From NCBI GenBank assembly GCA_026414725.1, contig JAOAIL010000010.1, forward strand, positions 1 to 49,530: a stretch of 49,530 nucleotides of DNA, given 5' to 3'. The notes beneath the pieces are model-generated. The model worked only from the letters and a program-made list of their open reading frames with translations, did not search any database and had not been told where the DNA came from. Below are positions 31,978 through 32,184 of this stretch, piece by piece (the stretch's first letter is position 1; each line of letters begins with the position of its first letter). This stretch comes from a bacterium (GTDB lineage: Bacteria > Ratteibacteria > UBA8468 > B48-G9 > JAFGKM01). The position numbers and the translations under genes were made by a program.

Positions 31978-32002
31978 AATTTGGTGGGCGGTGCAGGACT
32001 TG
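31978..32002. repeat. Duplicated 3' end of the tRNA-Val gene
   Basis: A 25-bp stretch identical to 32105-32129, which covers the CCA end, discriminator, 3' acceptor strand and part of the T arm of the tRNA. The offset is 127 bp. The DNA between is GC-richer than its surroundings and contains inverted repeats GAAATTGC/GCAATTTC (32044-32051, 32063-32070) and TTCAAGTCCT/AGGACTTGAA (32084-32093, 32122-32131). It has the form of an attachment-site duplication or a tRNA-derived non-coding element. Confidence 0.75.
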
Positions 32003-32108
32003 GCGCCCTCGTCTCCCAAAACGTCTCGGGTCGGCCACCCGCTGAAATTGCTGCGCCCACTCGCAATTTCTCACTTCGCTCCCTTCAAGTCCTTTCCAGA
32101 GAAGAATT

Positions 32109-32184
32109 TGGTGGGCGGTGCAGGACTTGAACCTGCGACTTCTACCTTGTAAGGGTAGCGCTCTTGCCACTGAGCTAACCGCCC
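32109..32184 (-). tRNA. tRNA-Val (anticodon UAC), CCA encoded
   Basis: On the minus strand, GGGCGGT (from 32184) pairs with ACCGCCC (32119-32113), followed by discriminator A and an encoded CCA ending at 32109. The D arm has TAGCTCAGTGG, the anticodon stem CTACC/GGTAG encloses loop CTTACAA with anticodon TAC, and the T arm holds GCAGGTTCAAGTCCTGC. A complete 76-nt cloverleaf including CCA. It reads GUA-type valine codons. Confidence 0.95.

Follow-up and report, generated by a model that had tools for sequence, protein, structure and literature searches.

What is the DNA that lies between a tRNA-Val gene and a second, perfect copy of that gene's own 3' end? The question arises in a window of 49,530 nt of contig JAOAIL010000010.1 (GCA_026414725.1), by which we mean the whole stretch of DNA analysed, and whose forward-strand coordinates are used throughout. 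Here the 25-nt sequence AATTTGGTGGGCGGTGCAGGACTTG occurs at 31978-32002 and again, with 100% identity, at 32105-32129, the two starts being 127 bp apart; an exact repeat of 25 nt at this distance is far beyond chance. The original prediction had noticed the repeat, together with two inverted repeats, and had read the arrangement as the footprint of integration at a tRNA: either the scar of an excised element or a minimal tRNA-targeting element. The repeat is confirmed, and the interpretation placed on it turned out to be half right. By examining the same arrangement in related genomes (G000 denotes the genome of the window, and other G numbers the genomes compared), we find that the unit behind tRNA-Val belongs to an undescribed family of non-coding units that are structured and targeted to tRNAs, and that it is most probably mobile. 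The reading that we prefer, with a probability of about 0.62, is that of a phylum-wide, non-coding and non-autonomous structured mobile element that inserts at the T loop and 3' end of tRNA genes.

The folded unit behind tRNA-Val

The locus is composed of the following parts:

32109..32184, minus strand: tRNA-Val(UAC) gene, the target, intact and with its CCA encoded (ARAGORN; Rfam RF00005, 75.2 bits)
32105..32128, minus strand: first direct-repeat copy (DR1), from tRNA T-loop position 57 to the end plus 4 nt, its boundary placed by comparing other units
32093..32108, minus strand: spacer X, AATTCTTCTCTGGAAA, 16 nt, locus-specific and resembling the original flank
32084..32092, minus strand: left arm, GGACTTGAA, the reverse complement of tRNA positions 54-62
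32002..32083, minus strand: conserved folded core, GGGAGCG...GGGCGCC, 82 nt, from the unit model and covariation
32044..32070, minus strand: hairpin P2 within the core (helices 2-3), all pairs changed on both sides
32002..32036, minus strand: hairpin P3 within the core (helices 4-5), GGCCGACCC...GGGCGCC, with internal GA:GA steps
31978..32001, minus strand: second copy of the tRNA 3' end (DR2), from direct-repeat comparison

Read along the tRNA strand, the intact tRNA is thus followed by the spacer, the left arm, the core (GC-rich, and reading GGGAGCGAAG...GAGGGCGCC on this strand) and the second tRNA copy, which runs from position 57 to the end and includes 4 flanking bases. The first 6-9 nt of DR2 can pair with the left arm, forming helix 1 (P1). 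Comparison with relatives places the true beginning of the repeat at T-loop position 57 (32128 and 32001); the 25th base of the repeat, a C at 32002 on the tRNA strand, is the final base of the core and matches C56 by coincidence. The inverted repeat predicted to pair with the T arm is present as the T-arm reverse complement, TTCAAGTCC on the plus strand at 32084-32092, and the second predicted inverted repeat corresponds to the covarying hairpins at 32044-32070 and 32002-32036. The unit carries no gene; by sequence inspection, a DnaK-like gene lies beyond it, and a gene for a corrinoid-binding-type protein on the other side. Elsewhere in the window, near the left contig end, there is a Cas1 gene (PF01867, E 5.5e-99) at 1058-1903 on the minus strand, so a CRISPR-Cas locus is likely there.

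Distribution of the unit and its position behind tRNA genes

Similar cores exist in G000 behind tRNA-Ser(gga) and inside a copy of tRNA-Ser(cga), and BLAST among relatives gave matches in 26 genomes. A covariance model of the unit, R1, was built from 57 units, among them the window's own, which it scores at 119 bits (E = 1.7e-34 for the window). R1 matches 30 of the 35 genomes searched in the phylum, with a maximum of 28 copies in G016, while several phylum genomes have no R1 unit; the unit models detected none in G006, G007 and G032. In other phyla, matches were obtained in 3 of 351 genomes, all of them weak (E 7e-5 to 2.4e-4), and the public records showing the unit pattern bear the label Candidatus Ratteibacteria or Omnitrophota. 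No match to the unit was obtained in phage, plasmid and viral collections, and Rfam, searched also at low thresholds, gave no family for it (best hit 12.8 bits, E 9.2). The open-access literature on tRNA-associated repeats, Ratteibacteria and small tRNA elements, as far as its partial coverage reaches, contains no description of the unit; "undescribed" therefore means not found in that literature.

The original prediction suggested a search for the unit beside other tRNA genes. Among 203 units on fetched DNA, 173 lie on the same strand as, and directly behind, a tRNA gene or another unit: a same-strand tRNA is found directly upstream within 60 nt for 121 and within 130 nt for 7 more, and 45 belong to tandem arrays, where they follow another unit (the genomes are without exception draft MAGs, so that tandem units at contig ends may be misassembled). 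A further 10 are at a contig edge. The good-scoring ones among the remaining 20 were read base by base and are mostly explained by special contexts: a position inside a tRNA copy, a tRNA missed by the finder (a tRNA-Asn with an intron, a stretch of N), or inserted sequence between tRNA and unit. More than 20 kinds of tRNA carry units.

Two loci have features of their own. At G020:C25 (L201, ~610-760), a tRNA-Asn upstream of a type A unit (type A being the kind found in the window) apparently contains a group I intron (the AAGATATAGTCC element). In G004 (L038, 450-2500), a tRNA-Ser(tga) is followed by an array of type A units and units with a second core, type B, described below; a transposase gene that looks IS481-like by eye has been inserted into the array, and the arms are replaced by a repeat, AGTGATTAGTGA.

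Arms matched to the host tRNA

In each unit, two arms specific to the host flank a constant folded core of about 80 nt. One arm directly repeats the unit's own tRNA from T-loop position 57 through its end; the other is the reverse complement of positions 54-65. The direct copy begins at position 57, is typically about 18-30 nt long, and matches its own tRNA 17/17 from that position in 94 of 123 units. The left arm pairs perfectly with its own tRNA at positions 57-62 in 89 of 102 units, as against 20.7 (maximum 37) when tRNAs were shuffled among units and 39.5 (maximum 55) when they were shuffled within genomes. Contiguous arm pairing scored over positions 57-65 is 7-9 in most units; where units were read by eye, it goes no further than position 65, at which the T stem ends. 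In a few units the bases facing G57-A58 are GA rather than TC, giving a tandem GA:GA step. No perfect complementary arm was found behind the unit-free tRNAs of G000, indicating that the arm comes and goes with the core. These comparisons go beyond the original prediction, since they reveal the T-arm inverted repeat as a constant, target-matched part of the units, in addition to the tandem arrays and the units inside tRNA copies.

Such arms would also suit an intron-like RNA element of the T loop, in which the left arm serves as an internal guide across the 56|57 junction (TTC|RAATCC) in the manner of group I introns, and the duplicated 3' exon makes splicing unnecessary. The arm is complementary to the contiguous positions 54-65, and DR2 begins exactly at 57, as this explanation expects; the unit has no Rfam match, however, and taking all the evidence together, including that presented below, we regard the explanation as quite improbable.

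Covariation and spread of the core

The fold of the core is strongly supported by covariation. RNAalifold returned 21 pairs, of which 18 show changes in both partners. Standard pairs make up 95.5% of cells across 127 distinct sequences (76.2% when shuffled), and double changes occur in 19 of the 21 pairs; having been fitted to the model, the alignment somewhat favours the fold, but pairing nonetheless falls to 35-56% (maximum 55.7%) when the partner is slid by 1-3 columns. On the tRNA strand, G:U pairs outnumber A:C (76 versus 45), a weak hint at RNA to which no probability is attached because the sequences are related.

A covarying fold is what one would expect of a functional RNA, either a cis-acting 3' trailer or a released RNA with a role in tRNA maturation, termination or regulation, maintained by selection and spread by gene conversion. 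That units are always co-oriented, on the tRNA strand, agrees with such a role, and the G:U excess weakly favours it. The distribution is patchy, however, with about 10 of the 45 tRNAs of G000 carrying a unit of any type and several genomes carrying none, and almost any tRNA is used; we therefore consider a functional RNA rather unlikely. One specific role, a switch between two tRNA folds, was rejected. The 5' acceptor strand folds onto the second tRNA copy in 96 of 96 units, but the preference (-6.6 kcal/mol) is nearly the same with shuffled or swapped arms (-5.9 and -5.8), so that the 96/96 result reflects the folding model and carries no weight as evidence; folding energies thus give no sign of an arm-driven switch of the tRNA fold.

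Cores are shared between tRNAs of the same genome. In G016, tRNA-His and tRNA-Lys(ctt) share an 83-nt core with 100% identity, and the core at tRNA-Leu(tag) is 98.8% identical to it, although these loci differ in spacer, arm and repeat, each fitting the local tRNA. Among 100 units, core likeness is higher between different tRNAs of the same genome (0.826) than at one and the same tRNA across congeners (0.800); across genera, a shared tRNA brings no extra likeness (0.678 versus 0.689). This likeness implies that cores spread inside a genome, whether by transposition or through gene conversion between standing arms; the latter would also yield identical cores with different arms, and the present data fit both.

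Occupied and empty sites

The locus of the window varies among relatives, as a comparison proposed with the original prediction made plain. Between tRNA-Val(tac) and dnaK, a unit is present in G000 and G002, a type B unit in G009 and a decayed remnant in G010, while the site is empty in G001, G004, G006 and G007; the flank that follows DR2 in G002 (TGATTTAAACCCCTCACC) aligns with the flank that follows the tRNA in the empty G001 (TGATTAACACCCCTCACC). Five further tRNAs, Leu(caa), Ala(tgc), Gly(tcc), Gln(ttg) and Lys(ctt), carry a unit in G001 or G004 but none at the corresponding syntenic site of G000, so that six tRNA loci of this genus (g1) are occupied in one genome and syntenically empty in another. 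Syntenic congeners that do without the unit again speak against a functional RNA.

Presence/absence polymorphism at syntenic sites is thus combined with near-identical copies elsewhere in the genome, as for non-autonomous miniature mobile elements. The differences could also be losses via recombination between the repeats, and at single loci loss cannot be told from gain. Sites at tRNA-Ser(tga), tRNA-Val(gac) and tRNA-Tyr are occupied in several species, which indicates that turnover is not fast.

Recurrence behind many kinds of tRNA, with a repeat that fits the local tRNA and at a site that varies among relatives, bears out one half of the original prediction, that of a minimal tRNA-targeting element. 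Units far from tRNAs and without the match, as well as an invariant site, were looked for as possible objections, and neither search overturned the tRNA-targeting reading.

A second core and interrupted tRNAs

At several places in G000 a second core, type B, which is unrelated to type A and reads AAAGGG...GGAGGACTATATCAGGAAGGGGG...CCCCCTCCTGAAGAGCGAAGCGA, occupies the same layout, with a copy of the 3' part of the tRNA on one side and the complement of the start of that copy on the other. The corresponding model, R2, has matches in 20 of 35 phylum genomes, with 8 copies in G000. That two unrelated cores follow one insertion habit suggests a shared machinery. The start of the copy in type B varies from the end of the anticodon stem to the T loop, and these other starting positions count against an intron-like guide across the 56|57 junction.

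At nine places the unit lies inside a tRNA copy. In this interrupted form, positions 1-53 are followed by CTGAAAT-loop-ATTTCAG, the core and, where the contig continues, the tRNA from 57 onward; several cases are followed by an intact copy of the same tRNA. The hosts are tRNA-Ser(cga) in G000, G001, G016 and G026, tRNA-Val sequences in G004 and tRNA-Pro in G024, and one of the G004 cases is within the tRNA copy of a type B unit. In this form TTC:GAA is replaced by CTG:CAG with complementarity kept, indicating that the upstream T-loop copy is paired by the arm as well; this is a point in favour of the intron-like explanation. The interrupted tRNA-Ser(cga) is common to two families, f1 (G000, G001) and f2 (G016, G026), as a functional RNA might be. 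In these genes (L246, L247, L249, L250) a shortened acceptor end is followed by a terminator-like hairpin, and the interrupted tRNA-Ser(cga) may be a stable RNA gene of its own.

Candidate mobilising enzymes

Four enzyme families were profiled: tyrosine integrase (PF00589), reverse transcriptase (PF00078), Y1 transposase (PF01797) and Cas1 (PF01867). PF00078 has matches in 3 of the 35 genomes and was not found in the unit-rich G016, G020, G021, G023 and G025, which also leaves an intron-like element in those genomes without a reverse transcriptase for its return from RNA to DNA. PF01797 was not found in G000, G016, G020, G021 and G025, carriers of 3-28 units, nor PF01867 in G008, G020, G025 and G029. 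PF00589, a general tyrosine recombinase model rather than one specific for IntI, has one or two matches in several unit-rich genomes (one in G016, with its 28 units), as expected of Xer, with which we tentatively identify them. None of the four families explains the distribution of units, with the possible exception of housekeeping Xer; CTX phage offers a precedent for Xer acting on folded single strands.

Two loci bring units together with protein-coding genes. At L148 (G000:C26, 101-1264 and 1290-1535), a tyrosine integrase ORF ends beside DR2 of a type B unit behind tRNA-Leu(taa), and an integrative element may here have used the unit's tRNA copy, and not the tRNA, as its attachment site. 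At L222 (G033:C98, 800-5584), two type A units behind tRNA-Tyr enclose genes for a type II methyltransferase, a TdeIII-like restriction enzyme and an Old/GajA-like ATPase; beyond the second unit the start of the methyltransferase gene is found again, and the restriction-modification set seems to have been duplicated along with the unit. No integrase was found in the DNA between the far-apart unit pairs at L222 and L204.

The integrase ORF and the enclosed restriction-modification genes would be in keeping with units being scars or att-site remnants of larger tyrosine-integrase elements, possibly decoy att sites. A conserved, covarying core and an inverted arm, however, are unexpected of a scar; this core of about 80 nt recurs in 30 genomes at dozens of tRNAs, G016 has a single tyrosine recombinase match for all its units, and the phage, plasmid and viral collections gave no match. 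An att remnant is accordingly very improbable, and the scar of an excised island, the other half of the original prediction, is largely refuted.

A possible route of insertion

We return to the preferred reading, that of a mobile element. Its mobile part would be the core of about 80 nt, folding as a single strand of RNA or DNA and probably moved in trans by an enzyme that recognises both the folded strand and the T loop, with the arms formed at insertion. The target would be the T loop, broken between positions 56 and 57 in the case of type A, and insertion would duplicate the tRNA from 57 through its end together with some flank, so that the upstream tRNA stays intact. A staggered cut followed by fill-in would give this duplication; the spacer resembles the original flank. 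The core would gain an inverted copy of positions 54-65 on its opposite side, and so become closed by a helix of the host tRNA's own T arm. This inverted copy goes beyond a simple staggered cut, which does not explain it: either the opposite strand might be copied during insertion, for example by snap-back synthesis with the folded core as cap, or cores might be exchanged between existing arms by gene conversion. It is possible, and we suggest it tentatively, that the units represent a new mobile class that writes its target into itself twice, with at least two unrelated cores (A and B) served by a shared host or trans-acting machinery across the phylum.

If this is true, a non-coding element is able to settle behind almost any tRNA without damaging it, and does so without reverse transcriptase or any consistently present transposase of the usual small elements. 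For the inverted arm to match its target, an enzyme or repair pathway would have to copy the target into the element; to our knowledge, no transposon so far described does this. Hundreds of insertions with known targets would provide natural material for the study of a new, T-loop-directed chemistry of site-specific insertion. For annotation, repeated tRNA 3' ends behind tRNA genes in these genomes should not be taken as evidence of an excised island.

Comparison with known systems

REP sequences and REPINs are short, non-coding, folded, non-autonomous and present in many copies, as the units are, and are moved by RAYT (TnpA_REP), it is thought in trans and as single-stranded DNA (PMC3116915, PMC2817692). 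REPs are dispersed in extragenic space, whereas the units are tied to tRNA 3' ends with matched arms, and the Y1 transposase is missing from several unit-rich genomes. In IS608 and the IS200-IS605 group, a short stretch beside a hairpin base-pairs with the target or cleavage site, the target being a tetranucleotide and the guide fixed (PMC5934647). The units likewise have a short hairpin-adjacent stretch that pairs with the target; however, it is about 9-12 nt long and different at each tRNA, and the units have direct repeats and no transposase gene.

Retroelements (group II introns, retrons and SINE-like elements) differ in their dependence on reverse transcriptase, which is missing from the unit-rich genomes tested. 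Group I introns in tRNA genes share a guide complementary to the ligated exon junction, but the unit has no recognised group I core, and its tRNA is intact without splicing. Integron cassettes resemble the units in forming arrays with folded recombination sites (attC); the units, by contrast, have no coding content, and their array is anchored at a tRNA instead of attI.

The casposon of M. mazei has a target site duplication of 14 bp that overlaps the last 4 bp of tRNA-Leu (PMC6977970). Casposons and Cas1 thus share with the units insertion at a tRNA 3' end with target duplication; the repeat of the units, however, is about 18-30 bp and begins at position 57, rather than being 14-15 bp at the very 3' end, the units are ~105 bp with no gene, and Cas1 is missing from several unit-rich genomes. 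Finally, tRNA-integrating islands with a tyrosine integrase also duplicate the tRNA 3' end and keep the gene intact. Different from these islands, what lies between tRNA and distal repeat at tRNA-Val is a 127-bp unit without an integrase gene, and the units have an inverted T-arm copy, a covarying core, and one family that serves more than 20 kinds of tRNA.
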